The notes under the pieces are model-generated. The model did no database searches, had not been told where the DNA came from, and saw only the letters and a list, made by a program, of their open reading frames with translations. From NCBI RefSeq assembly GCF_034424315.1, contig NZ_CP139972.1, positions 3,472,001 to 3,536,000 of the forward strand: DNA of 64,000 nt, read 5' to 3'. Both the position numbers and the translations under genes were made by a program. The DNA comes from Chitinophaga sancti (GTDB lineage Bacteria > Bacteroidota > Bacteroidia > Chitinophagales > Chitinophagaceae). Within the stretch, counting starts at the first letter, position 1. Every line of letters starts with the position of its first letter. Below are positions 9,678 to 54,945 of the stretch, piece by piece.

Positions 9678-10571
9678 TTATTTAATCCTGAATAATTCGA
9701 TTTCGTAAGCATGCGTGATCACCTTTCGCGCAAAAGGTAGGAAACTCTCACAGAAGCTATTAGGCTCATTTGCAGTAAAACCAATGGCTCTGAAGGTTAC
9801 AGATAAGGGAATAAACCATTGCGCCAACTGCAACTTCAGTAATGACGTCTCTGCAGCATCGGCGGGGTAACAACCTGGCACTGAACCAATCATTGTTTTT
9901 AGCTTATTTAGAATGAAGTGTTTTCCCTGAACATGAATACGATAGCCTCCTTTCTGCTGCTTCATTTCAATATGCAAATCACCGTAAACCTTATCAACGC
10001 CTTCAGCACAAAGCCAGGTGTAAGTGTTTTTGTATATCCGGTATCGATCCAGGGATACCCCGTGAGCCGCCATCATATGGACATTCATCAACTCTTTATA
10101 AAACCTCCCGCTGTCTGCAATGATGCCATTCAGGTCATTGATATCTATCTCCCCGGAGATGCTGATCAGCAGATAGCCATTCCTCATCCCGGTGTACTTC
10201 TTAATGATTTTATTCTGCTGATCATCATCTTTTTCATCTTTCAGTTGGAATTGGAATCTCGACCGGCTTTCGGAGATTGAAGCGCCAAGTATTTCTTTTA
10301 TACGATCAACAGAAGTTGTTTTCTGCCATTTTTGGTGCAGCCGCCATAAACTCAGAAGTTCATTGTCACCATAAGGGATATACTGATTAATAATAGTGGT
10401 AATGGCATCCAGCGTGCGATCGCTGCGATACAGCGCCTCCCAGAAGTTCAGCCATTCCAAAAAAGAGGCATCTTTTAATACAGCCTTCCATACAAAAGAC
10501 GAAAATTCATTGCTAATCGTTGTTTGGTCAAATTCAATACCCTGCTGGCTAAAGTTTTTTCCTTCAGTCAT
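9678..10571 (-). CDS. Element protein, hypothetical (297 aa)
   Basis: 297 residues from ATG 10571 (MTEGKNFSQQGIEFDQT). Soluble, mixed alpha/beta with several tryptophans near the N-terminus (FLEWLNFWEALYRSDR, LLSLWRLHQKWQK). It is the first gene of a leftward pair with the 8745 gene (6-nt gap). Its promoter must lie in the region shared with the divergent ssb leader. Family unknown. Confidence 0.6.
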   Translation of the reverse strand: MTEGKNFSQQGIEFDQTTISNEFSSFVWKAVLKDASFLEWLNFWEALYRSDRTLDAITTIINQYIPYGDNELLSLWRLHQKWQKTTSVDRIKEILGASISESRSRFQFQLKDEKDDDQQNKIIKKYTGMRNGYLLISISGEIDINDLNGIIADSGRFYKELMNVHMMAAHGVSLDRYRIYKNTYTWLCAEGVDKVYGDLHIEMKQQKGGYRIHVQGKHFILNKLKTMIGSVPGCYPADAAETSLLKLQLAQWFIPLSVTFRAIGFTANEPNSFCESFLPFARKVITHAYEIELFRIK

Positions 10572-10897
10572 TCATTCTTTTTTTGGTCAATAAACGCCCC
10601 GTCCGCGGTAGGGGAACCGGGAAGATGTTTGTTTAAATAATTGTTTTGATGGCACTACGTACTCTTGATTCGCCGCGCAAACCAGCTGCAATTTTTCAAC
10701 ATGCAGAATAATGGGTCAGGTCTGCAGGGGAATTTGTCTAATTCAATAATCGGTCTAAAGCTCCTCAATACAGGAAGCTTGGCTAGGTGTACAATTTGCG
10801 CTACCTCATATAAGGTAACCTCTTGTGTTCAAATATTTATTTTTTTCATCTGTCCTTCTTGCTTGCTAACAACTCCCGCAAACCCGGTTTATGCCTG
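10572..10897. other. Intergenic, divergent promoter region
   Basis: This stretch separates the leftward 9678-10571 gene from the rightward ssb leader. Frames such as 10665-10922 are short and lack coding character. A small GC-rich repeat (CCCC/GGGG around 10597-10615) is the only structure seen. Confidence 0.4.
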
Positions 10898-11075
10898 CTG
10901 TTTCTTTCCAGTGGAAGGGTAAAAGCACAGCGAAACTATTCCGTTCTGCTAAAAGTTTGCCTCCTTAATAGCTGGACGCAACGCTCCAGTCCAGCTACCC
11001 TCCGGGACTTACCGGCAAACAGTTAGCAGAACTCCATGATGCATTTGCTGTCTTTTTACCCCATCCACCGGAAAG
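10898..11075 (+). promoter_or_regulatory. Long imperfect hairpin leader upstream of ssb
   Basis: About 175 nt fold back on themselves. Outer arms CTTTCC (10904-10909) / GGAAAG (11070-11075), GGTAAAAG (10918-10925) / CTTTTTACC (11052-11060), GTTCTGCT (10943-10950) / AGCAGAAC (11025-11032), GTTTGCC (10955-10961) / GGCAAAC (11014-11020) and a perfect inner stem TAGCTGGAC (10969-10977) / GTCCAGCTA (10989-10997). The ssb ATG is 53 nt downstream. A similar structure with shared sequence blocks precedes the DUF932 gene (38113-38286). A single-strand-active promoter, as in the Frpo/ssi promoters of plasmid leading regions, is a fitting but unproven role. Confidence 0.65.
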
Positions 11076-11128
11076 GTTTGATAGGAGGAAGAAAGAAAGA
11101 AAAAAATATTCATTAAAAACTTACGAAA

Positions 11129-11524
11129 ATGACGATCACAGGAACATTAGTAGCAGATGCAAAAGTCATCACGCCAAGCGGAAAGAAACCATTTGTAGCC
11201 TTTCGGATTGCGGTTAACAACGCTTTTAAAAATGAGGAAGGTGTAGCAACTCAACCGGCTACTTTTTTATCGTGCAGATACTACAAAGATGCTAAGGTAG
11301 CTTCCTATATGAAGAAAGCGGATAACGTAGAAATCCACGGGGATATAACCTTCAAAGTATGGGTGGACGCACAAGGTACGCCAAGAGGTGAGATCGACAT
11401 ATTTGTGAAGGATTGCAAATTCTTCGGAACTGCCAGAAGGAACCCCGGCACGATGGCACAGGAATCGGTACCGGCTGAATCTGTACCAGCTGAAACACTC
11501 GAAACCGAAGACCTGCCATTTTAA
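11129..11524 (+). CDS. ssb: Single-stranded DNA-binding protein
   Basis: 131 residues with the SSB OB-fold (MTITGTLVADAKVI, PFVAFRIAVNNAF, TFLSCRYYKDAKVASYMKKA, VEIHGDITFKVWVDAQG) and an acidic tail ending DLPF, the tip that recruits replication and repair partners. Its job is to coat single-stranded DNA, for an element probably the strand entering during conjugation. It is the first gene of a rightward block and is followed after 59 nt by a ParB-like gene. The hydrophobic linker is short and carries a small repeat (ESVPAESVPAET). Confidence 0.92.
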   Translation: MTITGTLVADAKVITPSGKKPFVAFRIAVNNAFKNEEGVATQPATFLSCRYYKDAKVASYMKKADNVEIHGDITFKVWVDAQGTPRGEIDIFVKDCKFFGTARRNPGTMAQESVPAESVPAETLETEDLPF

Positions 11525-11583
11525 ACGGCAGGTTCTTACAACCTCCGCAACTTCTCTTTTTCTCACCATTAAGTATTAAAAAC

Positions 11584-13476
11584 ATGAAAACTACCCGTAA
11601 TAATAAGAAAATCGTTGCAGCTGTTAAAACAACAACAGCAAACGACTTGATTTCTCAAACATTCAAATCTGCTTCCACCATTGAATTCATTAGCGAAGAA
11701 CTGATTGATTTTTCTCCAATGAACAAACGGAGGAAATACAGTAAAGAGTCTTTAGAGCAATTAGCGGAATCGCTCGTTAGCAAAGATTTTATCCATGAGC
11801 CAACAGTCAGAAAAAAAGGCAAACGTTTTGAGCTGGTTGTGGGGCAACGCAGGCTGATGGCTGCACGGCTTGGCGGCATCAAAATAATTCGTTGTAAAGT
11901 GGTCGATCTAGATGATGCACAGGTGAGGGAAATTCAGTTAACTGAAAATCTACAGCGGGAAAATCAACACCCGCTGGATGAATCAGCGGTAATCTGTGAA
12001 ATGATGGAAACAGGGATGAGCGTAGCAGAGATTGCGCACCGTATCGGCAAAAGTGAAAGGTTCGTCTATGCCCGTAAATCTTTGTCAGCCTTGATCGATG
12101 AAATCAAAGACATATTATGGAATGATAAGTTTACCATGCAGCAGGCATTTGAAATTGCTACACTGAGTAGCGATGCGCAGCAGGCGTTTTTTGAAAATTG
12201 CTGTGAGGAATGGCAGAATGAGAATTTCAAAATTCGGGATTTTAACTGGGAGATCAGCCGGCTCCGTTGCGATCTGACCAAAGCACCATTTGACATAGAA
12301 GCCGACCATCTGATACCAGATGCTGGAAACTGTAATAGTTGCCCGCACAATTCAGCTTGTGCCAGCAGTCTTTTTCCAGAGTTCGCAGACACGGCTATAT
12401 GTTCCAAAAAATCGTGTTTTCAAAAGAAATGTGAAGCGCATTTTTACCTGATGTTTTCCGCTACATTTGCGGAACATATGCCTGCCGCATTCGTTTTCCG
12501 GGGCAGCATGCCCGACCTTGTAAAACACATCCTTTCGCAATTGGGGGCCGAAGAATTGCCCGTCTATACAAGCTGGGAGGTGAACGAATGCCGTGAACCA
12601 CAGATGCCGGATATCAATGACTATTATACAGAGGATGAAGATTGCACTGACGGTGAAACATTTACCGATATAGGACAAGCCAGATATGAAGAAGATCTGA
12701 CCGAATATAAAGTAGAACTGGCAGAATATCATCAGAAACTGGATACGGAATCCGTGCAGGGAATCTTCTTTGATGGACAGGATATAAGACCTTACCGATT
12801 CTTTCCGAGGGTTAAAGCGAGTGAGGAAAAGACACCCGTGTTTACCGCCAAAGAGGTAGAACTGGCTATCAAAAATGGCACAGCTGATGAAGAACTACTC
12901 AGCGGAGAAGTTAAGCGTCTGAACGATCGTGAAACCAGAAGCAAAGAACTGGACAGCGAGAAGGTGCAGAAAGAAGTATACATGCAGTCCGTAACCTTTT
13001 TCGAGGATATCAGTAACAAACGGGAATTGTTAGAAGCCGATATCGTAGCCTCCCGTTATCTGGTAATTAATGCCATGAACTGGGCGACAAAAAACGCGAT
13101 CGTTCAATTCCTTTTCCCTGATAATGACCGGCTGAGCAGTGTACCTATTGAGGACATGTACAATCGGTTAAGAGACCTAACCGAAGCAGAATTTTGTTAT
13201 CTGATACGCATTACTGTAGCGGGTAATGATCAGTCCAAAAATGTGAAAGATTTCTTTGGTCATCTGCTGTACAAAATGGCCGAAAGTGCCGGCGTAGATG
13301 TGGCCGTCATCGAAAAAAATCAGAAAGCGGTCACTCAAAAGCGGGAAAGCAGAGTAAAGGAGCGTATAGCGTTTATGAACAGAAAATTGACCTCGCTGGC
13401 AGCGAAAAAGAAACGACTGGCCGGACAGAAAGAAGAAAACAACGAAGATGCCGAAATCTTCCAAGATGAAGAATAG
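11584..13476 (+). CDS. ParB/Spo0J-family protein with cysteine-rich middle
   Basis: 630 residues, much longer than chromosomal ParB. Residues about 33-125 form the ParB N-terminal (ParB/sulfiredoxin-fold) domain with GQRRLMAARLGGIKIIRC and TENLQRENQHPLDESA. Residues about 135-165 form the KorB-type helix-turn-helix (GMSVAEIAHRIGKSERFVY). Then comes a cysteine cluster (CNSCPHNSACASS, CSKKSCFQKKCEAHF, about 247-290) that could bind zinc, and a long acidic, coiled-coil-prone C-terminal region. No parA is next to it. In many conjugative elements such ParB-like proteins lie beside ssb in the leading region; partition, nuclease or anti-defence roles are possible. Confidence 0.85.
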   Translation: MKTTRNNKKIVAAVKTTTANDLISQTFKSASTIEFISEELIDFSPMNKRRKYSKESLEQLAESLVSKDFIHEPTVRKKGKRFELVVGQRRLMAARLGGIKIIRCKVVDLDDAQVREIQLTENLQRENQHPLDESAVICEMMETGMSVAEIAHRIGKSERFVYARKSLSALIDEIKDILWNDKFTMQQAFEIATLSSDAQQAFFENCCEEWQNENFKIRDFNWEISRLRCDLTKAPFDIEADHLIPDAGNCNSCPHNSACASSLFPEFADTAICSKKSCFQKKCEAHFYLMFSATFAEHMPAAFVFRGSMPDLVKHILSQLGAEELPVYTSWEVNECREPQMPDINDYYTEDEDCTDGETFTDIGQARYEEDLTEYKVELAEYHQKLDTESVQGIFFDGQDIRPYRFFPRVKASEEKTPVFTAKEVELAIKNGTADEELLSGEVKRLNDRETRSKELDSEKVQKEVYMQSVTFFEDISNKRELLEADIVASRYLVINAMNWATKNAIVQFLFPDNDRLSSVPIEDMYNRLRDLTEAEFCYLIRITVAGNDQSKNVKDFFGHLLYKMAESAGVDVAVIEKNQKAVTQKRESRVKERIAFMNRKLTSLAAKKKRLAGQKEENNEDAEIFQDEE

Positions 13477-13492
13477 CAGACGCATAACAGAA

Positions 13493-13543
13493 GCCGGAGC
13501 CGCGCTCCGGCCTTCTTTCTTTGATACGCCTCAAAGAAAGAAG
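13493..13543 (+). terminator. Double hairpin terminator after the ParB-like gene
   Basis: GCCGGAGC-CGC-GCTCCGGC (13493-13511) is followed by a pyrimidine run. A second hairpin, CTTCTTTCTTTGA (13512-13524) / TCAAAGAAAGAAG (13531-13543), follows at once. Together they probably end the ssb-parB transcript. Confidence 0.6.
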
Positions 13544-13769
13544 CAAAGAAAGCGCCCGGCTCTGAAAAAACAGGCTGATTCGTATAGCCCCTTCAAATTT
13601 TTTAACCTGCAATAGAGAATATTATGAATACACATATTCAGATTTATGGAATCATTTCCATCATTATTGGAACCGTTATACTATTATGGATCAGGAAAAG
13701 AATCTTTGAGCGTAGCACCTGGGGTGGAACGCAGGTATTCAAAAATTTCTATTCTTTTATCTTCATTAA

Positions 13770-14631
13770 GAGTATGTTTAAAATTCTGATGGGCTAAAAT
13801 TAGGAAAGTACGAATCGATCAATTAGTTTGGATTTACCACAAAACAAACTATGAGAACGAAGTTCACATTATTGACCGATTCGCACTGGAAAAGTATAGA
13901 AAAAATATTAACGGACAAAAGAAAGCGTAAATATAGCCTTCGAACTATCTTCAATGCTATATTATGGATTTGCAGAACAGGTAGTCAATGGCGTAATCTA
14001 AGCAGTGATTTCCCTTACTGGCAGATAGTTTACTATTATTTCAATAAATGGAAAAAAGCAGGTGTGCTGGAACAGGTGATGTTAAAAATGGTTAGAAAAG
14101 AGCGGATAGATCAGGGGCGAAATTATGCACCATCTGTCAGTGCTATCGATAGCCAAAGTATAAAGAAAACTGGATTCGTAAGTATAGAAACCGGGATCGA
14201 TGGCGGTAAGCATATCAATGGTCGAAAAAGGCATCTTGCTGTTGATAGCTTAGGATTACCAATTGCGATAAGTGTCAGCGGCGCAAATATTCATGACTCA
14301 ATTGGCGGTTTTGATTTGCTGTGGAAAATTGAAAAGGTTAGTCATAGAATGAAACTGATTCGTACAGATAAAGCATACCAGGGAGAGTTTAGCGATATGG
14401 TTGAGAATTATTACAAATGGAAGATGGAAATAACTCAGAAACCGCCGACAGTAAGGGGTTTTGTGCCACAGAAAGGTAGATGGCAGGTTGAACGATCATT
14501 CGCTTGGCTCAATAACTTCAGAAGATTGTCGAAGGATTATGAAAGGCTACCTGAATCATCTGTGGCTTTCATCCAGGTAGCATTCATTAGTATACTTCTA
14601 AAATAAGTAGAATTAGTTTTTAAACATACTC
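13770..14631 (+). mobile_element. Complete IS5-family insertion sequence, 862 bp
   Basis: Perfect 14-bp terminal inverted repeats GAGTATGTTTAAAA (13770-13783) and TTTTAAACATACTC (14618-14631), flanked by a direct TAA on both sides (13767-13769, 14632-14634). It contains one intact transposase. A 3-bp TNA target duplication fits IS5-family subgroups such as IS1031. The intact ends and the cleanly interrupted host gene indicate recent insertion. Confidence 0.92.
13851..14606 (+). CDS. IS5-family DDE transposase
   Basis: 251 residues. An N-terminal DUF4096-type domain (HWKSIEKILTDKRKRKYSLR, RTGSQWRNLSSDFPYWQIVY) precedes the DDE core with D100 (SAIDSQSIKKTG), D173 (RTDKAYQGEF) and E214 (GRWQVERSFAWL). 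The length matches single-frame IS5 transposases and nothing is missing, so the element is probably active. Confidence 0.93.
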   Translation: MRTKFTLLTDSHWKSIEKILTDKRKRKYSLRTIFNAILWICRTGSQWRNLSSDFPYWQIVYYYFNKWKKAGVLEQVMLKMVRKERIDQGRNYAPSVSAIDSQSIKKTGFVSIETGIDGGKHINGRKRHLAVDSLGLPIAISVSGANIHDSIGGFDLLWKIEKVSHRMKLIRTDKAYQGEFSDMVENYYKWKMEITQKPPTVRGFVPQKGRWQVERSFAWLNNFRRLSKDYERLPESSVAFIQVAFISILLK

Positions 14632-15249: not shown

Positions 15250-15873
15250 ATGGAAACAGAAAGTCAAAATTTACAACAGACACACCCGCTTGGTCTGGTC
15301 GAATTGATTCGTACTCATCCGGCCATTGATGATGTAAAGCTCCGGGATTTTTTAAAGTCGATGCGGATTCCATTGGCCGTAGCCGGACGCTTCGCCTCCC
15401 AGGTGGAATGCCGGAAAAATGGTAAAATTTTTATGGCTCTGGGATGCCGGAATCCTTCCGGAAACTGGGAAACGATTGGCCCCGAGGGTATAGGCTATAC
15501 CGGCACCATTACTTTTGTGCATCACAATGCCAATCAACCGCGCATCGACCTGTTTAACAACCAGCGGGATTTTCTCAATGTCCAGAAGCTCCGGCCATCA
15601 AAACTGGGCGCTAATGATAGTCTGATTGTCGCCGGCATGGATCAATTGATGGATGCCTTGCCCCACCTTAAAAAGTACGCACAACTGAATTTATATTTTG
15701 ATCATACGATACCGGGCAATGCATTAAGAAACTGCACCTCGCTGCTTTTCTCAGACAGGGCCAATGACTTCAGCAAGATGTATGAAAAGAATCTTTCTTT
15801 CACCGGCTACTGCATCGAACTTGGCAACCGAGAACGGCGTAATCTGGATCGTAACCGAAGCAGAGGAATCTGA
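15250..15873 (+). CDS. Toprim-like protein lacking catalytic acids, copy 1
   Basis: 207 residues. It matches the C-terminal Toprim half of the primase encoded at 16638: LRDFLKSMRIPLAVAGRF against LLNYLKQRKIPYYLAAEY, and SLIVAGMDQLM...LYFDH against YLILNGIALFE...LFLDRD. The conserved glutamate of the primase (VFEGFFDFLS) is replaced (LFNNQRDFLN) and the DxD motif is FDHT, so metal-dependent catalysis is unlikely. It has no zinc-finger part. It is clearly a paralogue of the next gene. A structural partner, competitor or regulator of the primase is a reasonable guess. Confidence 0.7.
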   Translation: METESQNLQQTHPLGLVELIRTHPAIDDVKLRDFLKSMRIPLAVAGRFASQVECRKNGKIFMALGCRNPSGNWETIGPEGIGYTGTITFVHHNANQPRIDLFNNQRDFLNVQKLRPSKLGANDSLIVAGMDQLMDALPHLKKYAQLNLYFDHTIPGNALRNCTSLLFSDRANDFSKMYEKNLSFTGYCIELGNRERRNLDRNRSRGI

Positions 15874-15927
15874 TCAGCTGTTATCCGACGATCCCTTTAT
15901 AAGCACTATTAATTTAAACGTTTTACA

Positions 15928-16569
15928 ATGAAACATGCAAATGAACATTTCAAGGACACACCTGCACTGGGGGTGGTTCGACTAATCGGCGCAAGCCTTA
16001 TGATTAATGCGCCTCACCTGGTCGCCTATCTGAACGAAAACCTCATCCCGCTGTCTGTGGCTAATCGTTATCTGCTTGAAGTCGATTGCCAAAAGGATGA
16101 CAGAATATTTAAGGCATTGGGATGCCCTAATCCTTCCGGAAATTATGAAGTGATCGGACCCGAAGGCATTGGTCGGACCGGCCTCCTGACTTATGCCTTA
16201 TGGGGCACTTATTCAAAGAAAATCGGTCTTTTTAATAATCAGTTAGATTTCCTGAGAGAGCAAAAGTTCAATCTGACAACATCTGGCGACCACCCTAATG
16301 ACAGCCTGATCGCTACCGATATGCATCAACTGGGAAAAGCACTGCCGGAACTTGAGAAATATGAAAAAGTGCATTGCTATTTTGATCATACTCTTCAGGG
16401 CCGGGCATTAGCCAAACGTCTCTCGGCAGCCATCGGTGACAAAATGGTGGACTTTAGCAAGCTGTTTGAAAAGGATCTTTCCTATCACCGCTACAAAGTC
16501 AAAGCCGCCAGAAACATCGAAAAGTTTTTGGAAAGCAAAAAAGCCGGAAACCAAGTTAAAAAATTATAA
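15928..16569 (+). CDS. Toprim-like protein lacking catalytic acids, copy 2
   Basis: 213 residues from ATG 15928, 54 nt after the first copy. Shared blocks include IFKALGCPNPSGNYEVIGPE with IFMALGCRNPSGNWETIGPE, LFNNQLDFL with LFNNQRDFL, and YFDHTLQGRAL with YFDHTIPGNAL. Again the Toprim glutamate and second aspartate are gone. The basic C-terminal tail (RNIEKFLESKKAGNQVKK) is specific to this copy. A tandem duplication upstream of the active primase (16638) implies selection for two non-catalytic forms. Confidence 0.7.
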   Translation: MKHANEHFKDTPALGVVRLIGASLMINAPHLVAYLNENLIPLSVANRYLLEVDCQKDDRIFKALGCPNPSGNYEVIGPEGIGRTGLLTYALWGTYSKKIGLFNNQLDFLREQKFNLTTSGDHPNDSLIATDMHQLGKALPELEKYEKVHCYFDHTLQGRALAKRLSAAIGDKMVDFSKLFEKDLSYHRYKVKAARNIEKFLESKKAGNQVKKL

Positions 16570-16637
16570 CTGCCGGCCTCCTGTAACCGCACCCGCAGGA
16601 TGGCGCAGCAATCTGTGTGAATTAAGAAATGTGTATT

Positions 16638-17519
16638 ATGAATAACAGATTTAATCATCCTGACATAGATCGGGTGTTGCAGATCGATCTGGTCGATTAT
16701 CTGTCATCACAGGGGCATGAGCCGGTGCGTATCTCAGGGAACGACTATTGGTATCTCTCGCCTTTGGCCGAGGAAAGAACCGCATCCTTTAAAGTAAATA
16801 GAAAGAAGAATATCTGGTATGATCATGGGCGGGCAGCAGGCGGCGGTATCATTCACTTTTTAACCCGGTTTCACGGGTGTACGATCAGGGATTTTATCGA
16901 AGCTCACAACCTGCTTCCGGCCGCTCCGCAAAGCACTGCCTCCATCCCCAAAAAAGCAGAAGAACCTGACCGAAAAATTGAAATTTCAACCATCAGGCGG
17001 CTAACCCATGACAGTCTACTAAATTATTTGAAACAGCGTAAAATACCGTACTACCTGGCCGCTGAATATTGCCGGGAAATATGGTATACCGTGGATGACC
17101 GCAAATACTTTGGAATCGGATTCATAAACGATGCCAATGGGTACGAAGTCCGCTCGGCTTATAGTAAAATCTGCCTTCATCCAAAGGCAGTTTCCACTTT
17201 CAAAAACGGGTCCAATATCCTGTGTGTCTTTGAAGGCTTTTTTGACTTCTTATCGTTCGTTTATGTCCATCCGACCAGGCTGGATTTCCCGCTGGATTAT
17301 CTCATCCTCAATGGCATCGCACTGTTCGAAAAATCACGTCCGGTCATGGAGAGTTATCAAGAAATAAAACTGTTTCTTGACCGCGATACAACCGGCCTGA
17401 ATTACACCGAATACGCCTGTTCATTAAGCCCAAAATACAGGGATGAAAGTGCCCTTTACAGCAAGTATAAAGACATGAATGACTGGCTGGTAAATTTCGG
17501 AAAATCCCCTGCAGGATAA
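16638..17519 (+). CDS. Toprim-domain (DnaG-like) primase of the element
   Basis: About 293 residues; ATG 16638 chosen, with an in-frame ATG at 16629. The N-terminal part (about 8-75: VDYLSSQGHEPVRISGNDYW, SFKVNRKKNIWYDHGRAAGG, GGIIHFLTRFHGC) has the shape of the primase zinc-binding domain but lacks the CHC2 ligands. The C-terminal part is Toprim, with the glutamate motif VFEGFFDFLS and the acidic motif LFLDRDTTG. The job would be priming synthesis of the complementary strand after transfer, or element replication. It follows its two degenerate paralogues and precedes the mobilisation genes. Confidence 0.8.
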   Translation: MNNRFNHPDIDRVLQIDLVDYLSSQGHEPVRISGNDYWYLSPLAEERTASFKVNRKKNIWYDHGRAAGGGIIHFLTRFHGCTIRDFIEAHNLLPAAPQSTASIPKKAEEPDRKIEISTIRRLTHDSLLNYLKQRKIPYYLAAEYCREIWYTVDDRKYFGIGFINDANGYEVRSAYSKICLHPKAVSTFKNGSNILCVFEGFFDFLSFVYVHPTRLDFPLDYLILNGIALFEKSRPVMESYQEIKLFLDRDTTGLNYTEYACSLSPKYRDESALYSKYKDMNDWLVNFGKSPAG

Positions 17520-17901
17520 TGCGCGGAAACAGCCGGATACCAGGGTAGCTGGAAATTGATTTACTCCTGCTACTTTTCATCGGCTCTGAAAATTACCGCC
17601 CGGGTCAGCGGAAGCGGGCCGCTGATGACTGTTATCACTTTCCGGCTAAGCCTGCAAGCTGATAACGGGTGCCTGGGAATACCCGGCATAATGCACGGCT
17701 TCGAAAAGCCGTTGAGGTTGCTGGTCTTTTGCAACCGGCAAGATGTCCGGTTATTTAATAATAACCGTTTTTAGATGGGCTTTTACCCTCCGTAGTCGGG
17801 AAAGCCTGCTATTAGAAACTCCTGCTTTTTACTGATTTATTAACCGGTTTTTGAAGCATTCGCACCTGCTTTCGAAAGCCATCATTACAATAACTACGAT
17901 T
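17520..17901. other. Stem-loop-rich region, candidate origin of transfer
   Basis: 382 nt without a gene directly upstream of the mobC-like and relaxase genes, the usual oriT position in Bacteroidetes mobilisable elements. Visible stems are CGGCTT/AAGCCG (17696-17711), GGTTGC/GCAACC (17716-17736) and CGGTTATT/AATAACCG (17748-17767). The last is followed by five T residues and may also end the primase transcript. The nic site cannot be fixed by eye. Confidence 0.5.
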
Positions 17902-18291
17902 ATGAATGCCAAAAATAAAAACCGGGTGCGGTTACTTGGTGTGCTATTAAGCCCCGAAGAGTTTCAAACTTTTGAGCAAAACTGGAAGTCATCAGGCTGT
18001 AAGAAGATGAGCGAATTTGCCCGCCGGAAACTGTTTGGTAAAGCCATTGTCAGCACCTACCGAAACAGGTCGCTGGATGATTTTATGCATGAAATGATTC
18101 ACCTCCGAAAGGAGCTGAACGCACTTGCCGTGAACTACAATCAGGCCCTGAAGAAACTGAATTCGCAGGACCGGATTCCATCCGAAAAAAGCTGGTTCCT
18201 TACTCTGGAAATGGAACACAAAATCCTGCTGAATAAGGTGAATGAAATCAAGGCGAAAATCAATTTAATGGCGGACGAATGGTTGCTGTAA
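17902..18291 (+). CDS. MobC-like relaxosome accessory protein
   Basis: About 129 residues from ATG 17902 (MNAKNKNRVRLLGVLLSPEE); a longer frame to 17851 adds an unlikely hydrophobic lead. The features are those of MobC/BmgB relaxosome proteins: a beta-strand then a ribbon-helix-helix-like start (FQTFEQNWKSSGCKKMSEFA), ARRKLFG, and a helical tail (HLRKELNALAVNYNQALKKL). It should bind oriT and help the relaxase nick. Its 3' end overlaps the relaxase start by 13 nt. Confidence 0.85.
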   Translation: MNAKNKNRVRLLGVLLSPEEFQTFEQNWKSSGCKKMSEFARRKLFGKAIVSTYRNRSLDDFMHEMIHLRKELNALAVNYNQALKKLNSQDRIPSEKSWFLTLEMEHKILLNKVNEIKAKINLMADEWLL

Positions 18292-19649
18292 TTAAGTTCG
18301 GGAAGTCTGTTCAAAAGACACTCAACTATAACGAAAATAAGGTCAGAGAAGGGGTAGCGAAATGCCTGGCTGCGGTCAACTATCCCAAGGAACTTGAAGA
18401 CCTGACATTAATGCAGAAACTGAGCCGGCTGAACAAACTGGCAGCACTCCATGAAGATGTTACATCTCCCAGTGTTCACGTCAGCTTAAACTTCCCACCG
18501 GGCGAACATCCCGATGAAGTGACCATGCAGAAAATCGCCAAAACCTATATGGATAAAATAGGCATGGGCGACCAGCCTTACCTTGTGTATGAACATATGG
18601 ATGCAGGACATCCACATCTGCATATTGTATCCGTAAAAGTCAGAGCTGACGGTACGCGGGTTAACACGCAGAATATTGGCAAGAACCAGTCGAGGGAAGC
18701 CCGATTGTTCATTGAAAAGGAATACGGCCTGACACCTGCGCAGCAACATGGTGCATTACATCGGGATGAAAGTGACGCATTGAATTCGGAGGTGCTGCAA
18801 ATGGGTAAAACAGCTGTAAAACGCAAGATCGAAAATATCCTGCACCGGGTTTTGGACCGTTATCATTATACCTCCCTGGATGAATTTAACGCCCTGCTGA
18901 GCCGCTATAATGTGCGTTCCGAAAGGGGCACAGAAAACTCCAATATCTACAAGCATGGTGGACTGATCTTCAAAGGGCTGAAGGACGGTCAGCCCGCAGG
19001 CCCGCCATTGAAAGCAAGCCTCTTTAATATCGATGATCAAAGTCCGACGCTGACCAATCTGCAATCCAGATTCGAAGCAAATAAACGATACCACAAGTCA
19101 AACGTGAAGGAACGCGATGATCTGGCAAACCGCATCCGCATTACCATTGCGCAAGCTAAAAAACTGGATCTCCCTGACCTCATCGCAAGGTTACGAGAGA
19201 AACGAATAGCTGTTGCCCTGCATGTTGGTAAAGATGACCGGGTATTTGGTATCACCTTTATTGATCATGCCAATAAAAATGTCTTCAAAGGTAGTGACCT
19301 GGGTAAGGATTTGACTGCCGCCGCGATCATTAAAAAATGCGGTATGGCTATAGAAAACCCCGGCAATGTCAATTCGATCAGCGAGCCTTCGGCCCTCTCA
19401 AATGCGACTCTTCAACCATCAGTCTCTAAACCTTCTGAAAGCCAAACAAACGCACCCGCTACGCACCCTCGAGATCCTTCAAATGATACTGGGTATTTCC
19501 CTCCTTTAGGTCCGGCTACCGGCAGTGATGTAATCTTCGTGGTCAAAGGCATATTCGATGCACTCACACAAAACGAGTATACACCATTGCTGCCATATCC
19601 TTTCCGCATCGGGAAATCCAGGAAGAAAAAGAAACGCAAATCAATATGA
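18279..19649 (+). CDS. Relaxase/mobilisation nuclease
   Basis: 456 residues with the PF03432-type relaxase domain in the first 200: FGKSVQKTLNYNENKV carries the likely nucleophile tyrosine, VHVSLNFPPGE is a core strand, and DAGHPHLHIVSVKV is the three-histidine metal motif. The C-terminal part is variable, proline/serine-rich (about 365-410), and ends in a basic patch KSRKKKKRKS. It nicks oriT and pilots the DNA strand to the coupling protein encoded next. Start ATG lies inside the mobC-like 3' end, a sign of translational coupling. Confidence 0.92.
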   Translation: MVAVIKFGKSVQKTLNYNENKVREGVAKCLAAVNYPKELEDLTLMQKLSRLNKLAALHEDVTSPSVHVSLNFPPGEHPDEVTMQKIAKTYMDKIGMGDQPYLVYEHMDAGHPHLHIVSVKVRADGTRVNTQNIGKNQSREARLFIEKEYGLTPAQQHGALHRDESDALNSEVLQMGKTAVKRKIENILHRVLDRYHYTSLDEFNALLSRYNVRSERGTENSNIYKHGGLIFKGLKDGQPAGPPLKASLFNIDDQSPTLTNLQSRFEANKRYHKSNVKERDDLANRIRITIAQAKKLDLPDLIARLREKRIAVALHVGKDDRVFGITFIDHANKNVFKGSDLGKDLTAAAIIKKCGMAIENPGNVNSISEPSALSNATLQPSVSKPSESQTNAPATHPRDPSNDTGYFPPLGPATGSDVIFVVKGIFDALTQNEYTPLLPYPFRIGKSRKKKKRKSI

Positions 19650-19676
19650 TACATTAACCACTTAATTATTACAGTT

Positions 19677-21659
19677 ATGCAAACAGGTGAAAACGAACAG
19701 GCGCTGAGGAAAATTTTGGACATGACCCGTTTAATTTCCATCGTCATTTTAGTCATCCATTTTTATTTTTTTTGTTATACCACATTTCACAGGTTAGGGA
19801 TGGTATCCTCATTTACCGACCGCCTGCTTACCAATGTTTCTAAAACCGGCTTGGTGCGAAACTTCCACCTTTCCAAATGCTGGTCGCTATTATTTCTTAT
19901 CATTTCATTAGTCGGGGTTAGAGGTCGCAAGGATCAGAAGATGACAACCAAAACCGCCTGGGCCTATATCATACCGGGTCTGTTAGCTTTCTTCCTCGGC
20001 TTCGCCATTTTATATACACAGGTTGATCCTGATATACGCACTTATTTATACATCGGCATCACGACTATCGGCTTTCTGTTATTACTTACAGGAGGCACTT
20101 ATTTTTCTCGAATCATCCGTCAGGGGCTTAATAATGATGACATATTTAACAGCGAAAATGAAACCTTTCCGCAAGAGGAAAGATTGTTGGAAAATGAATT
20201 CTCCGTCAACCTGCCCGCCGTCTACAAATTAAAAGGCAAGGTCCGTAAATCATACATCAACTTCATCAACATCTTTCGTGGTGTTTTGGTGGCCGGGTCA
20301 CCCGGATCTGGAAAATCCTTTTTTGTACTTCGCCATTTCATCACACAAACTATTGAAAAGGGCTACACAGCTTTGGTATATGACCTGAAGTATCCGGACC
20401 TCAGCCAGATCGCTTACAATTCCTTTCTGAAGAATAAGCACAAGTACAAGAAGGAGCCTCAGTTTTATGTCATCAATTTTGATGACCTGAATTGCAGTCA
20501 CCGGTGTAACCCGCTTTATCCTGCAACCATGCTGGATATCACCGACGCAGCGGAAAGCGCCAGAACAATTATGCTTGGGCTTAACAAATCGTGGATTCCA
20601 AAAAATGGGGATTTCTTTGTCGAGTCACCAATTAACCTAGTCACTGCTATCATCTGGTACCTCCGGAAATATAATAACGGAGAGTATTGTACGCTACCTC
20701 ATGTAATTGAATTTCTGCAACTGGGATACGACCAGCTGTTTACATTACTACGGCAGGAAAAAGAAATAGAAGTATTGGTCAACCCTTTTATAAATGCGTA
20801 CATCGCCGATGTGATGGAGCAATTAGAGGGACAGATCGCCAGCGCTAAAATAGGCATGGGCAGACTTGCTTCTCCCCAGTTATATTACATCATGTCGGGC
20901 AACGATTTCACCCTGGATATCAATAACCCTGATGACCCTAAAATCCTTTGCCTCGGTAATAATCCGCAGAAATTACAAATCTATGGTGCTGTTATTTCCC
21001 TTTATGTTAACCGTCTTCTAAAGTTGGTTAACCAGAAAGGAAAGTTAAAGAATGCCTTGATCTTTGATGAATTCTCTTCGATAACGGTCACCGGTATTTC
21101 CGGTCATATCGCCATTGCGCGAGGCTACAAATCTGCCACAGTTTTAGGCTTGCAGGATCTTACACAATTACGCCGTGATTATGGAAAAGATGAAGCGGAT
21201 GTGATCTTCGGTATCGTAGGAAACATCATCAGTGGTCAGGTTACAGGAGAAACCTCAAAACTACTATCGGAGCGTATCGGTAAGATCATGCAGGACAGGC
21301 AGAGCCTTTCAATCAATGCTTCGGATACCTCTATCAGCCAATCCAAGCAATTGGATTCGGCTGTTCCCCCGTCAAAAATTGCCACCTTATCTTCTGGCGA
21401 ATTTGTCGGAGTTGTGGCGGACAACCCCGAAGAGAAAATCGACCTGAAAGCTTTTCATTGCCAGATTCAAAATGACATTTCGGCTTTGCAAGCAGAGGAA
21501 GCTGCTTACAAGGTTATACCCAAGATTCGAGATGTTACGCCTGAAATGGTAGAACGAAATTTCCTGCGTATTCGGGCCGATATTCAGGAGCTAGTTAATG
21601 CCGAATATATGCACATTATGAATGATCCGGAATTGGCACACTTGATTATTAAAAAATGA
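19677..21659 (+). CDS. VirD4/TraG-type coupling protein
   Basis: 660 residues. N-terminal membrane segments (about 18-35, 63-79, 92-110, 116-134) anchor it in the inner membrane. The ATPase domain has Walker A AGSPGSGKSF (about 206-215) and Walker B NALIFDEFSS (about 463-472), plus DLTQLRRDYG in the hexameric-motor core. It links the relaxosome to the type IV secretion channel. It starts 27 nt after the relaxase, so the mobC-relaxase-coupling genes are one operon, ending at a strong terminator. Confidence 0.92.
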   Translation: MQTGENEQALRKILDMTRLISIVILVIHFYFFCYTTFHRLGMVSSFTDRLLTNVSKTGLVRNFHLSKCWSLLFLIISLVGVRGRKDQKMTTKTAWAYIIPGLLAFFLGFAILYTQVDPDIRTYLYIGITTIGFLLLLTGGTYFSRIIRQGLNNDDIFNSENETFPQEERLLENEFSVNLPAVYKLKGKVRKSYINFINIFRGVLVAGSPGSGKSFFVLRHFITQTIEKGYTALVYDLKYPDLSQIAYNSFLKNKHKYKKEPQFYVINFDDLNCSHRCNPLYPATMLDITDAAESARTIMLGLNKSWIPKNGDFFVESPINLVTAIIWYLRKYNNGEYCTLPHVIEFLQLGYDQLFTLLRQEKEIEVLVNPFINAYIADVMEQLEGQIASAKIGMGRLASPQLYYIMSGNDFTLDINNPDDPKILCLGNNPQKLQIYGAVISLYVNRLLKLVNQKGKLKNALIFDEFSSITVTGISGHIAIARGYKSATVLGLQDLTQLRRDYGKDEADVIFGIVGNIISGQVTGETSKLLSERIGKIMQDRQSLSINASDTSISQSKQLDSAVPPSKIATLSSGEFVGVVADNPEEKIDLKAFHCQIQNDISALQAEEAAYKVIPKIRDVTPEMVERNFLRIRADIQELVNAEYMHIMNDPELAHLIIKK

Positions 21660-27206: not shown

Positions 27207-30200
27207 ATGAGAAATATTAATAGCAAGATCTTTGTTTCAATTTTCGCACTAATTTTGTTTGCAATTACCCCGGCCTTTTGTCAAAATATTCCAAAGGAAA
27301 TTGTACCGGTTAACGCCAGTGCTCCAGCCATTCCAGGTGCTTATTCAAATTCTAAGATAAATTATATAAGGACCTGGGAACCGGATATGCCTACATCAGA
27401 CACTGCAGTCGTAAAATCTACGCTAAGAACGCCATCAGAGGTAAAACAATCCACAGAATACTATGATGGTTTAGGCAGAATTATTCAATCCGTTACAAAA
27501 GGTATTTCACCTGCAGGTAATGATGCTGTTAGCATGAACATCTATGATCCATTTGGGCGTGAGGTAGTAAAGTACCTTCCGTATGTACCTAAAACCGGGA
27601 ATGTCAATGACGGGAGGTTTAAAACAGATCCGTTTAATGGGCAAAATGCTTTTTATAAGGATACATTGCTCAATCCGGCAGCTGCTGGAGAGTCTATTTA
27701 TTTTGCAAGAACCATATTTGAATCCTCGCCTTTAAACAGAATTCAAAAGGAGTATTCACAGGGCAATAACTGGGCAGAGGAGGGCGGAAACCGGTCTGTA
27801 CAAACTTCCTATCAGTTTAATACAATAAGCGATTCTGTCCGACTATTTGCATTAGCTGACGACGCGACTGTGCCCACCTCTACGACCATATATAAAGCAG
27901 GTACGTTATTCAAAAACATCGTTACGGATGAGAATAACCGGCAGACCATTTCTTTCGTGGATAAGGAAGGAAGAAAAATACTGGAAAGAGTTCAATCATC
28001 CTTCGCTCCAGGAATCGGGCATAGAGGTTGGTTGTCCACGTACTATATTTATAATCTAAGAGGCCAGCTGGCGTTTATCCTCCCTCCCAAAGCCGTTGAT
28101 ATCATTAAGGCAAGTTTCTCGATCTCCACAGCACTGGCAGCTGAACTATGTTTTTCTTATCGATACGACCTCAGAGGTCGAATTATCGAAAAGAAAATTC
28201 CGGGTGCGGAACCAGTTGAAATGGCATACGACAAAAGAGACCGCTTAGTTTTTTCAAGAAATGGCTTGTTAAAATCAAGATTTCAGTGCCAGGGATACTA
28301 TTATGACTCTATCAACAGGCAAATTCAATACAATGTCTGCAACGATACAGCGTCTGTAAAAACAATACAGGCAGTTTTTGATACGATGACTGTTATTAGC
28401 CAATCTCCACCATTGCCATTTATACCCAACAATTGGATTATTCCGATGTCATATACTTATTATGACAAGTACAATTTTCCTGGTGCCAGTTCTTATACAA
28501 CAACAGATATCAGTGCTAGCAGAGTAGGCAGTAATTCTTATCCGGAAACAATGCCCTCCAGCGCTTCCGCTATGACGAAAGGACTGGTCGTTGGTAAGCG
28601 ATCATTTGTAATATCCGATACGGTATGGCTCACTACCACTTCATTTTATGATGATAAAGGAAAGGTAATTCAGGTTAATTCCGACAACTGGGCAAGAGGA
28701 AAAGATATAACAAATACCAGGTATGATTTCTCCGGGAAGATACTATCCACTTACCAGCGACACACTAATCCCAAAAGCAGATCAACGCCCTCATCAACTT
28801 TACTAACAATATTTCATTACGATGCAGCAGGAAGACCTGATTCACTTATTAAAACACTAAATGATAACCCTTTACTTCAAAAAGTAATCTGTCTTACATC
28901 ATACGATGAGTTAGGCCAGAAAAAAAATGAACGTTTTGATGTAAATGCCTCCGGACAAATTGAAACCCTTAACTATTCCTATAATTTAAAAGGCTGGCTT
29001 AAATCCATCAATAAAAATTACCTAAACACAGCCAATAGTTCCAGCAATTGGTTTGGACTTGAGCTTTCCTACGATAATGGATTTGACAGTGTAAAATATG
29101 ATGGAAATATTTCCGGAACAAAATGGAAAAGCGGTGATGATAATATCTCCCGGGCATACGGATATGGCTATGATCCAGTCAACAGATTAATATCAGCCTA
29201 TTTTACCCAACAAAATGTTGGCAGCACTACCTGGACAAATACCCCTGTAAATTTTTCTGTTAGTGGAATAAGCTATGATGCAAGCGGCAATATATTTAGT
29301 ATGAAACAAATGGGCATGAATGGCCCTATCTCCCAGACTATAGATAGCCTTAAATATTTCTATAGCTATGGTACTAATAGTTACACGAATAAGCTCTATT
29401 ATGTGACAGATAAAGCCAATAATCCGGCTTCATTATTAGGAGATTTCCACGAAGCCAATAACACCGAAACGCAAGATTACTATTATGACCCCAACGGAAA
29501 TATTTGTAAGGATAAGAATAAAAATATAGACACAATTTATTATAATGATTATAATTTACCCGCTATAATCAATATCCATAACCGGGGAGTTCTATATTAC
29601 GTTTATGACGGCGAAGGCAACAAAGTTGGAAAAGTTATAATTGATACAGTCAGTTCACAACCCAGAGTCGTGCGAACAACCTATGCTAATGGGTTTGTCT
29701 ACGTTAATAACAACAACACGCTTGATACCCTTCAATATATCAACCATGAGGCTGGCAGAATCAGGCCTGTATTTAAAACAGGACTTCCCACTCAATGGTC
29801 ATTTGATTATTTCCTAAAAGACCATCTTGGTAATACAAGGGTTATTTTAGCAACCAGAAGAGATACTGCCACATATGCCGCAACAATGGAAAGTTCGGTA
29901 AGTGGGTTAGAAAATGCTTTGTTTAATAATATTGATAATACCCGGGCGCCTAAACCGAGTTATTACCCTAATGATCCTACAACCAATCCAAATGCTAATG
30001 TTGCCTTGCTAAATGGTGGAAGTGGTGGGCAAAAGATTGGCCCATCTAAAGTATTACGGGTTATGGCAGGGGATACTATATCCGTTTCGGTAAAAGCGGT
30101 ATATCATAATGTCGGTGCCGCTACTTCAGCAAATACATCGTCTATTATGGTGGCCTCCATTCTGTCTGCATTTTCTGGGAACTTTGTTACAGATGGAGCA

Positions 30201-31430: not shown

Positions 31431-31436
31431 TATTAT

Positions 31437-31823
31437 ATGCCGTCAAAAAAAGAAATTGAATCGGTTCTTCAACAGGATACGAAAACCCGCTTTGAATATG
31501 CTATTAAACGAATAGCAGGCAATGAGGAAGTATGGGTTGCTGAATATAATAATGAATTTTTATTAATGGGAGATGATGAAGATAATGAGGTTTTCCCATT
31601 ATGGCCCCATGAAGAATATGTCCAGGTATTTTGCGATAATGGGAGACCTGATTATAAGCCCACCTCTATAACATTAGATGATTTTATTGAGTTGTATATT
31701 CCTGATTGTGAAAAGAAGAATCAAAAGATTGGTGTAATGCCAATGCCTAATGGTGCATCCGTGGTAGTTGATGTTGATATTTTTATGCAAGCGATTAACG
31801 CCGAACTAGATAAATACTTATAG
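31437..31823 (+). CDS. DUF2750-family protein, probable immunity protein
   Basis: 128 residues, starting 6 nt after the Rhs toxin stop, the classic place for a cognate immunity gene. Family pattern: TRFEYAIKRIAGNEEVWVAE, LLMGDDEDNEVFPLWPHEEY, LDDFIELYIPDCEKK. Small, acidic, cytoplasmic. It would bind and neutralise the tip of the preceding toxin. The family call is good; the pairing is inferred from position. Confidence 0.75.
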   Translation: MPSKKEIESVLQQDTKTRFEYAIKRIAGNEEVWVAEYNNEFLLMGDDEDNEVFPLWPHEEYVQVFCDNGRPDYKPTSITLDDFIELYIPDCEKKNQKIGVMPMPNGASVVVDVDIFMQAINAELDKYL

Positions 31824-37847: not shown

Positions 37848-38112
37848 AACGAGTTGATGTTTTGGTCGAAATTCAAAGGATTGCTAAAGTTCCAATTTTT
37901 CTGATTTGACAAAGTTACCAATTGCTTCGTTAATGCCAGTTAACATCGTGTTAACGCAGTTTGATTTCTCAGCATCAAAAACTGCTATTCAATTTACGCC
38001 ATCTGCGCGGCTTGAAATTTATCCGTTTTAGCTTTCTGCAAATCACACCTAAATCCTGGTTGCCTTCATCACCGTGAATGCCCTGCTAATAAGCTTGATT
38101 AGTCCTGAAATC

Positions 38113-38286
38113 CTGTTTGGAAGGAAGGCGGCTAAAGGACTTGCGAAATTAGGTCAGGCCGCTTATTCCGAGCGCATAAATGCCGTCTCGTACCTCGCCG
38201 TCATCCTGACGGAACTTTATAGCTCTCCATAATCTTACCTAACCAGTTCTGATTGCCGTCTTTTAACCGCTTTCCTTCCAAAACAG
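38113..38286 (+). promoter_or_regulatory. Long imperfect hairpin leader upstream of the DUF932 gene
   Basis: The 28-nt left arm (38113-38140, CTGTTTGGAAGGAAGGCGGC...) pairs with 38258-38286 with few mismatches. Inner stems are TTAGGT/ACCTAA (38149-38154, 38237-38242), GAGCGCATAAA/TTTATAGCTC (38170-38225) and CCGTCA/TGACGG (38198-38212). The DUF932 ATG is 56 nt downstream. Size, spacing and blocks such as CTGTTT, GCGAAA and GTCTTTT match the ssb leader at 10898-11075. The other part of this gap (37848-38112) shows only the kinase upstream sequence and no gene. Confidence 0.7.
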
Positions 38287-38342
38287 GGTTCAATCGGGGA
38301 AAAAGAAGAGAAAGAATTTTTCATTACTAAAAAATTATTAAC

Positions 38343-39416
38343 ATGGCACACGAACTGAATTTCAACGAGACCACAGGACAGCACAGCTTTTTTTCAGTAA
38401 AAGAGATAGCATGGCACGGATTGGGCCAGATAGTTCAGGATTATCCGACAAGTGCAGAAGCACTGAAATTTGCACACCTTGACTTCACCGTAGAAAAGAG
38501 GCCAATTTTCACGGGTAATGTATCCAGTTCCCAAGATGAAGGAGCAGGGGAGATGACGATTCCTAACATAACCGTACCTGACTATTTTGCAACCGTTAGA
38601 CAAGATAACAACGCGGTGCTAGGGGTAGTTGGTAAAGACTACCATATCGTCCAAAATACGGACGCATTTGCCTTCTTTGACGCGATCGTTGGCGGCGACG
38701 GCATACAGTACGAAACTGCCGGAGGACTAGGAAAAGGAGAGCGTATATTTATTACTGCAAAACTTCCCGGTTACATCAAAGTCGGCAACGATGATCTGAT
38801 TGAAAAATATCTATTTTTAACAACCAGCCATGATGGAAGCGGCAGCATCACAGCGGCGTTCACACCCGTTCGCATAGTTTGTGCAAATACATTACGGGCA
38901 GCACTGGCAAACATGACCAATACCATTAAAATTCGTCATACAGCCAACGTACAAGAGCGCCTTAAGCAAGCCCATCGCCTGATGGGTATTTCAAATAACC
39001 TTTCTAAAGAAATGGAGGGAGTTTTCAACCAGTGGTCAAAGTCACGTATATCAGACGCCGGTGTGAAAAAATTGATTCAATTGGCATTAGCCCCAAGTAG
39101 GGAGGTACTGGCGAATGTTAAAGCGGATCGGATGGACACCCTCACCTCCACTTTTAACAACATGGTAGACGCTGCGTACGAATACGGGATGAGCAACCAT
39201 ACACAGCAGATGGAAACCACTGAAGGAACCGTATTCGGAGCTTACAACGCAGTAACCGGTTTTTTCCAGAATGTAAGGAAATATAAAACTACTGAGGATA
39301 AGGTAAAATCTATATTACTGGGTGGTAATGCACAAATCAAAACTCAAAACGCTTTTAACATTTGCATGGAAGTAAGTAAAAAAGGAGAAGAATTCCTGCA
39401 GTTTAACTGCAACTGA
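38343..39416 (+). CDS. DUF932 phage/plasmid-like protein (TIGR03299 type)
   Basis: 357 residues. Family pattern: FSVKEIAWHGLGQIVQDYPT, DYFATVRQDNNAVLGVVGKD, YHIVQNTDAFAFFDAIVGGD, ITAAFTPVRIVCANTLRAAL and NIRHTAN-like IKIRHTANVQERL. DUF932 proteins are typical of plasmids, ICEs and phages and often travel in leading regions; their biochemical role is not settled. It is single-gene, framed by a long hairpin leader and a terminator. The leader homology to ssb suggests the same early-expression regulon. Confidence 0.9.
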   Translation: MAHELNFNETTGQHSFFSVKEIAWHGLGQIVQDYPTSAEALKFAHLDFTVEKRPIFTGNVSSSQDEGAGEMTIPNITVPDYFATVRQDNNAVLGVVGKDYHIVQNTDAFAFFDAIVGGDGIQYETAGGLGKGERIFITAKLPGYIKVGNDDLIEKYLFLTTSHDGSGSITAAFTPVRIVCANTLRAALANMTNTIKIRHTANVQERLKQAHRLMGISNNLSKEMEGVFNQWSKSRISDAGVKKLIQLALAPSREVLANVKADRMDTLTSTFNNMVDAAYEYGMSNHTQQMETTEGTVFGAYNAVTGFFQNVRKYKTTEDKVKSILLGGNAQIKTQNAFNICMEVSKKGEEFLQFNCN

Positions 39417-54314: not shown

Positions 54315-54945
54315 GTGCATCCAGCGAAGGTGGACATGTTCAATGGGAGTTAGTTCCATCAGGGTAATAGCCAGAACCCTGTAACTAAGTAGCAGGAGGG
54401 AAGGAAACTGAACTCCCGAAGCCTACAGATAAAGCCATGTAAAGCATGGTTAGTGGGTTACCAGGCCGTAATATTCATGAACGCAGAAGTAGCCTCGTAA
54501 GTAAGTTAATGTCCAATGGCCGAGCCTTTATAGTTCAGGCGAAGGCAATATGTCTCTCCGAAATTGGCTGACACAGGAAACGACACATTGGCGGGGTGAT
54601 AGCGACAGTATGGTAACAAGGACATGTACCGCAACTGGAGACCCCCTCCTCATCCCGGAAGAAATCTCCGGAGGCATTCGGCTCTATAACCAAATAGGGA
54701 AATGAGTCGAAAGGTGAGAGGGAGTCGGATAGGGTAAAAGTAGCAATGATGTTACTGAAAGGTAGCAGAGCGAAGTACCCTTACTAATAACAAATCTTTT
54801 AACAACGAGAGGCAAAGGCGCAATGATAAAAACGTCTATAAAATTGCAGGATCTTAGAAGAAATATATATATTAAGTCGAAGGCCGAACCAGACCATCGC
54901 GTCTGGGGATTGTAAGTACATGTATGTAAAATTGAGACGCTTAGA
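54315..54945 (+). mobile_element. Group II intron 5' fragment with truncated reverse transcriptase
   Basis: The 5' end GTGCATCCAGCG and the following structured sequence (with GGGAAATGAGTCGAAAGGTG, GAGAGGGAGTCGGATAGGGT) have the look of group II intron domain I-III RNA. The RT frame starts at ATG 54823 (MIKTSIKLQDLRRNIYIKSK, AEPDHRVWGL), hits TAA where a tyrosine codon is expected, and similarity resumes briefly (VHVCKIETLRE) before ending. The maturase domains, domains V/VI and 3' end are missing, so it cannot splice or move by itself. Class not determined. Confidence 0.85.

Follow-up and report, generated by a model that had tools for sequence, protein, structure and literature searches.

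A long imperfect hairpin stands in front of ssb in a conjugative element of Chitinophaga sancti, on the strand that is predicted to be transferred. We consider it probable that this hairpin works as a single-strand promoter like Frpo and ssi, in a form adapted to the primary sigma factor of Bacteroidota, its promoter function being a prediction. The window (the whole stretch of DNA analysed, 64,000 nucleotides) was compared with related elements by computation. The comparisons showed the structure itself, covariation in related hairpin families, a promoter box and its strand, a depletion of boxes in the forward direction, and the context and orientation of the genes.

The hairpin in front of ssb

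The initial annotation had described a fold-back of about 175 nt lying some 53 nt before ssb, and this was borne out. The hairpin spans 10903..11076 on the minus strand, the proposed folded transferred strand, and ends about 52-53 nt before the ssb ATG at 11129. Both strands of 10898-11128 were folded, as the annotation had advised. As plus-strand RNA, the region had a folding energy of -81.8 kcal/mol and a z of -7.2, which none of 200 dinucleotide shuffles equalled. As single-stranded DNA, z was -5.5 for the plus strand and -6.6 for the minus strand, and again none of 200 shuffles was as good. The predicted transferred strand thus forms a stable long stem-loop, and the fold-back at 10903-11076 is confirmed as real. 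In both the RNA and the DNA models, the main stem pairs 10904-10915 with 11064-11075 (with one bulged position in the RNA model), 10917-10924 with 11054-11061, 10927-10931 with 11047-11051, 10943-10952 with 11023-11032, 10955-10961 with 11014-11020, and 10969-10977 with 10989-10997. The stems number six or more and not the five that had been described. The hairpin is present in a single copy in the host genome (8.4 Mb, one contig), and a search of the 10898-11128 region at gathering scores gave no Rfam match.

A collinear ICE without the insertion sequence was found in another genome of the genus (G431), with 71-80% identity to the window over four aligned blocks. The hairpin region is identical at 172 of 181 positions (95%), and the flanking ssb-parB block 10531-13769 is 79.7% identical. 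One stem pair, 10958/11017, shows a compensatory change from T-A to C-G between the two elements, and 1 to 3 others are disrupted, the number varying with the strand and the energy model. G431 was the one close relative in an ssb search of 79 genomes of the genus, and the protein database held two clusters of this ssb, the window's own and one at 81%. Since the window's own hairpin family has two known members, covariation within it is measurable for one pair only. With the window ParB as query, no relative was found in genome_contigs, and the best plasmid ParBs were all below 60% identity. A plasmid DNA search with window 10630-13480 in distant mode gave no match, plasmid F included. A non-coding block at 10637-10736, between the hairpin and the divergent gene upstream of it (10571-9678, minus strand), is also conserved in G431.

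Gene order and the predicted transferred strand

According to Pfam, the plus strand carries in order ssb, a ParB-like gene, an IS transposase, primase, MobC, relaxase and coupling protein genes. The ssb gene lies at 11129..11524 (Pfam SSB, E 5.6e-12) and is followed at 11584..13476 by a parB-like gene of 630 aa (Pfam ParB_N), whose product matched the leading-region ParB of the F plasmid in BLASTP (29% over 219 aa, E 3e-15). A transposase of IS4/5 type (13851-14606, plus strand, Pfam), missing from G431, separates parB from the next gene. Three related tandem primase-like ORFs at 15250..17519 (plus strand) matched one another in tblastn; the last is a CHC2/Toprim primase and alone carries Pfam primase domains. 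The genes for MobC, a MobA/VirD2-like relaxase (mobA) and a traG-type coupling protein occupy 17851..21659 on the plus strand (Pfam), and a DUF932 gene lies farther along at 38343..39416, also on the plus strand (Pfam, E 8.6e-69).

Other genes of the window were noted on the way. The interval 27207-31823 encodes an RHS-type protein with a C-terminal Ntox8 domain, and the adjoining DUF2750 gene may be its immunity partner. At 41276-45981, a DNA polymerase III alpha-like gene lies beside an ImuB-like (IMS) gene, as in damage-tolerance cassettes. A pair of genes for an OLD-like nuclease and a UvrD-like helicase at 50027-54134, which we take to recall the Gabija defence system, has a group II intron fragment beside it at 54341-54476.

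The transferred strand was predicted from the origin of transfer. The alignment took in some 340 bases in front of mobC from each of 22 elements, one of them the window's, and revealed one core common to all 22 regions, with letters that vary in some rows. The predicted oriT core lies at 17738..17767 on the minus strand and consists of an inverted repeat (17767-17748) followed by GA, CATCTTG and C, with nic between 17739 and 17738. According to parts of a previous report, MOBP relaxases need (C/T)ATCCTG(C/T), and RP4 and tfs4 carry the repeat 5' to this motif (PMC3772185). The window core departs from the MOBP consensus by one mismatch, and the window relaxase appears from its Pfam match to be of the MOBP class. 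Nicking of the minus strand at 17739|17738 is therefore probable. It would make the minus strand the transferred strand and place primase, parB and ssb on the leading side, with the transferred strand as their template. The initial annotation had proposed that gene content and position match the model of a plasmid leading region, and this agrees with an ssb and a ParB-like gene that lie on the leading side and are templated by the predicted transferred strand.

The same arrangement was examined for 92 ssb genes, taking relaxases from among the matches listed, minus four rows on contigs without a listed ssb. Fifty-four of them had a listed relaxase within 25 kb, and ssb was on the same strand as the relaxase in all 54. 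In these related elements, judged by the listed relaxases, ssb was on the leading side in 45 of 54 and on the other, late-entering side in 9. The remaining 38 of the 92 had none among the listed relaxases within 25 kb on the contig.

Hairpin families and promoter boxes

Leaders of 96 ICE-type ssb genes were collected from about 90 stronger matches of a longer list and from loci of further ssb and relaxase searches. Two places near contig ends were left out, and 92 of the 96 sequences are distinct (L089 and L092 are one locus). A fold with z below -3 was found in 41 of 94 ssb leaders (two of the 96 were too short to score) compared to 22 of the 100 controls scored (out of 139), these being other leaders from elements of this kind. 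Two hairpin families were recognised: 26 of the 96 leaders have A, 28 have B, and one is counted in both. Neither motif was present in 43 of 96, among them the leaders of the window and G431.

The hairpins of both families covary. Among 23 sequences of family A, 17 pairs covaried, with 50 cells changed on both sides compared to 14.3 cells in shuffled alignments, and among nine sequences of the B2 subset of family B, 12 pairs covaried with 23 cells compared to 7.9; none of 500 shuffles reached either value, the consensus structures having been predicted from the same alignments, which favours them, and the shuffles leaving relatedness in. The initial annotation had suggested aligning the ssb upstream regions of related ICEs and had named a lack of covariation in homologous leaders as evidence against its proposal. 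Covariation was found for families A and B, and for a single pair in the window's own two-member family.

We also asked whether the window hairpin belongs to family A. The family A core AAAGACTACGGCATAA..TTATTCCGTTTCC was absent from the window leader at one mismatch. An nhmmer profile of the family A 5' arm gave its two top matches in the window inside the hairpin, one per arm, at E 2.5 and 2.8, and the 3'-arm profile gave none in the hairpin among the matches listed. With the core motifs missing and arm profiles at E 2.5-2.8, the window hairpin could not be placed in family A.

The family A core was present in at least 119 stretches of genome_contigs. Among the matches listed were Chryseobacterium, Flavobacterium, Sphingobacterium, Mucilaginibacter, Pedobacter and Maribacter, as well as single metagenome bins named Chlorobiota and Parvularcula. 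It was also present in 3 viral contigs, and the exact family B core was found in 6 of 345 genomes of the phylum. As family A hairpins with short flanks were dropped, the 139 hairpins became 130 for the analysis of downstream genes, 104 for that of neighbour strand, and 138, then 121 non-redundant, for that of TTTG spacing. The first recognised gene 3' of the hairpin (n = 130, domains taken from representatives) encoded SSB in 33 cases, ParB in 25, DUF932 in 15, RadC in 9, two small unknown proteins in 14 and 8, and another product in 10, with none recognised in 16. No Rfam match at E 0.1 was found for five loci with related hairpins. Two further arrangements were observed: at L182, L206, L218, L223 and L233, a family A hairpin lies about 2 kb from another, and the two stand before different genes in those cases in which the next gene was recognised; and a second ICE-type ssb of the host genome (L036, G000:C1:1925738-1927245) has a family B hairpin and a DUF932 gene directly after it.

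According to part of a previous report, the primary Bacteroidota sigma factor (sigma-ABfr) reads TAnnTTTG around -7 and TTTG around -33; the -33 element was not observed in F. johnsoniae (PMC7366714). We searched for such boxes within the folded stem, as had been proposed with the first description of the hairpin. A -7 box, TAGTTTCG, was found at 10931..10938 on the minus strand. It agrees with TAnnTTTG at 7 of 8 positions and lies on the arm that is non-template when the minus strand folds, with one half inside an internal loop; its first four bases, TAGT, are unpaired in the minus-strand fold with probabilities of 0.88, 0.96, 0.82 and 0.51. In the window hairpin, no TTTG was found at a spacing usable for a -33 box. 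In the intergenic region 10572-11128, TAnnTT[TC]G occurred once on the minus strand (10938-10931, inside the hairpin) and was absent from the plus strand.

Because TAnnTT[TC]G is common by chance, present on the minus strand of 55 of 90 non-redundant leaders and of about 31 of 90 in shuffles, the window's own box means little without comparison across leaders. The window and many members of both families share the pattern GC[AG]AAnnTA on the plus 5' arm, which is TAnnTT[T/C]GC on the minus strand. It occurred on the plus strand of 48 of the 90 non-redundant leaders compared to a shuffle mean of 9.0 (maximum 18), and of 50 of 96 ssb leaders compared to 13 of 139 controls, counts that overstate independence because family members share boxes by descent. 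In contrast, TAnnTT[TC]G in the forward direction, aimed at ssb in the duplex, was depleted (5 of 96 ssb leaders compared to 48 of 139 controls).

In 28 of 121 hairpins, compared to 1.1 in shuffles (maximum 4), a TTTG at the edge of the family A core preceded a TAnnTTTG of the same arm by 17-23 nt. The spacing was 20 nt in 21 of these 28, many of which look like close relatives and so do not count as 21 independent events. Exact GC[AG]AAnnTA within 100 nt of the core was limited to 45 of 134 family A hairpins; TAnnTTTG was found within 70 nt in 44 of 121, and TAnnTTnG, with the seventh base free, in 84 of 121. In family B, CCTTG precedes the box by about 20-23 nt in many members.

A second hairpin of the same design was found at 38104..38298 (minus strand), 44 nt before the DUF932 gene, with a z of -4.2 as RNA and -3.4 as minus-strand DNA. 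Its -7 box, TAATTTCG (38144..38151, minus strand), is unchanged in G431. In the DNA fold of the minus strand the TAAT of this box is unpaired, but in the RNA fold of the plus strand these positions are mostly paired. When the two window hairpins were compared with each other, 14 of 16 positions agreed in one stretch of their 3' arms, and 2 of 500 shuffles scored as high. A likeness beyond the 3' arms was unconvincing, with 26 of 500 shuffles for whole hairpins and 115 of 500 for 5' arms. Among 25 DUF932 leaders of the genus, the box was present in 9, the window and G431 included, and the forward box TAnnTT[TC]G in none. By gene order relative to the predicted nick, the window DUF932 gene would be on the late-entering side.

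Alternative explanations and known systems

The hairpin may instead be a structured mRNA leader, in which an ordinary upstream promoter is used and a hairpin in the 5' UTR controls translation or stability of ssb, for example by SSB feedback; we give this a small chance. The strong plus-strand RNA fold (z -7.2) and the end of the hairpin about 52-53 nt before the ATG would fit it. The strand tests were mixed between RNA and DNA. In 101 family A hairpins, RNA energies favoured the plus strand (lower z in 74 of 101, p 1e-5) and DNA energies favoured the minus strand (p 4e-8), and in 44 leaders of all kinds the strand difference in z was non-significant with either (alike sequences had been dropped from both sets and from the 134 hairpins of the box count). 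The mismatched cells of the B2 subset speak against RNA, being mainly wobble on the minus strand: when the pairs predicted on either strand are pooled, the plus strand shows 64 A-C and 7 G-T, and when those predicted on both are counted, 9 and 0. Family A was neutral, with 76 A-C and 71 G-T. A scan of 10572-11128 for TAnnTT[TC]G alone found none on the plus strand, no Rfam match was obtained, and one class of leader before SSB, ParB, DUF932 and RadC genes ill suits SSB feedback. The scarcity of forward boxes in ssb and DUF932 leaders and the variety of genes served thus argue against a plain mRNA leader. There is a small chance that the hairpin serves to initiate complementary-strand synthesis on single-stranded DNA (as an sso, or a primase or primosome site) and that its place before ssb is incidental. 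The minus-strand DNA fold (z -6.6) and the element's own primase gene are consistent with priming, and ICEBs1 has a functional sso, as part of a previous report describes (PMC4595007). However, particular genes follow the related hairpins closely and on the same strand, and pure priming would not need the promoter box that many of these hairpins have. Frpo is reported, in the title of Masai and Arai 1997, to do both jobs, promoter and priming.

The box in the duplex reads toward the minus-strand gene 10571-9678 and might thus belong to an ordinary promoter of this divergent gene that lies by chance within an inverted repeat. This is improbable, as the neighbours of other hairpins are arranged differently. 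Among 27 box-bearing leaders that were checked (with L089/L092, one locus, entering twice), the closest ORF upstream runs in the same direction in 18 and is divergent in 7, and 2 have no such ORF. Upstream of 104 family A hairpins, the neighbour was on the plus strand 54 times, on the minus strand 49 times and missing once; downstream, the corresponding counts were 84, 14 and 6. A divergent promoter would also leave the stem covariation unexplained, and in G431 the divergent product is 39% identical, whereas the hairpin is 95% identical. A protein-binding, replication or partition site, or the remnant of a small transposon, without promoter function, would suit a long inverted repeat adjoining parB; it is very improbable, given that the repeat has a single copy in the genome and that related hairpins stand before early genes in many genera.

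A single-strand promoter remains our preferred reading. It draws on the covarying related hairpins, the place on the leading side, genes templated by the inferred transferred strand and the -7 box; the missing -33, the box at 7 of 8 positions and the one covarying pair of the window's own family weigh on the other side. We infer that RNA polymerase binds and uses the hairpin, and its transcription, timing and off switch would be as follows. In conjugation, the minus strand would be nicked near 17739|17738, and its 5' end would enter the recipient first with the region of primase, parB and ssb. The hairpin would fold on the entering strand, with the ssb-distal arm as the non-template bearing TAGTTTCG and the ssb-proximal arm as the template; at the box, a loop of mismatched bases would pre-melt the promoter. 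Because the box arm is the non-template in the folded strand, transcription would run toward ssb, and RNA polymerase would transcribe ssb-parB ahead of complementary-strand synthesis. In the duplex the box points away from ssb, and synthesis of the second strand should therefore switch the promoter off. The second hairpin before the DUF932 gene would act alike, though this gene is on the late-entering side.

Like Frpo1 and Frpo2 of plasmid F and ssi of ColIb-P9, the hairpin is a non-coding leading-region structure on the predicted transferred strand before ssb and a ParB gene. Part of a previous report on plasmid F describes that Frpo2 acts on ssb and that Frpo1 lies upstream of ygeA-ygeB (PMC9849209). 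In the plasmid F record, the leading region holds ssb, a ParB of 652 aa and a DUF932 gene. We take ygeB to be this DUF932 gene. The window DUF932 protein matched that of F weakly (BLASTP, E 1e-5), and both elements have a second hairpin before the DUF932 gene, in the window on the late-entering side. As control folds, the F leaders gave z values of -6.7 and -5.4 on the minus strand and -6.5 and -3.7 on the plus strand. A scan of these leaders found no sigma-70 site at up to 3 mismatches on either strand, so that F served as a control of folding and gene order and not as a check of box geometry. Unlike Frpo and ssi, the window hairpin had no sequence match in plasmids, F included, and is not in the known Frpo sequence family; it has a Bacteroidota -7 type box and not sigma-70 -35/-10 boxes, the elements are chromosomal, and the window copy is without -33. 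If our reading is right, it works like a single-strand promoter from outside that family. The sso of ICEBs1 is likewise a single-strand origin of an ICE, but in the relevant passages it is described as a replication origin (PMC4595007). The STAXI motif (RF01728) is, in part of its description, also a structured element near ssb and antirestriction genes, and its authors weighed a role in single-stranded DNA and preferred RNA (PMC2864571). It consists, however, of repeated pseudoknots in Enterobacteriales, and the window hairpin has no Rfam match.

The initial annotation had considered such promoters little described in Bacteroidota. Searches by title and start of abstract found no description of them in this phylum, one search being swamped by taxon words. 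A review of soil plasmids mentions, in its accessible portions, Frpo and Bacteroid terms apart (PMC9024699). The word 'bacteroid' is absent from the main text, as available, of a 2024 survey, which sought sites by BLAST with five known sequences and, for a few islands, by means of sigma-70 boxes (PMC11541004). A method that depends on known sequences and sigma-70 boxes would miss Bacteroidota hairpins.

A broader proposal, to which we assign an even chance, is that single-strand promoters are used across the phylum in conjugative elements of Bacteroidota. They would comprise several hairpin families with a sigma-ABfr -7 box only on the folded non-template arm, and the flip in orientation between the folded strand and the duplex would act as a switch, so that SSB, ParB, DUF932 and RadC would be made in a burst at entry and then fall silent. 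Early gene expression from entering single-stranded DNA has been described for enterobacterial plasmids. If the proposal is true, Bacteroidota elements share this strategy with a promoter code of their own, and families A and B would be markers of early genes, including uncharacterised ones that may counter the defences of the recipient.
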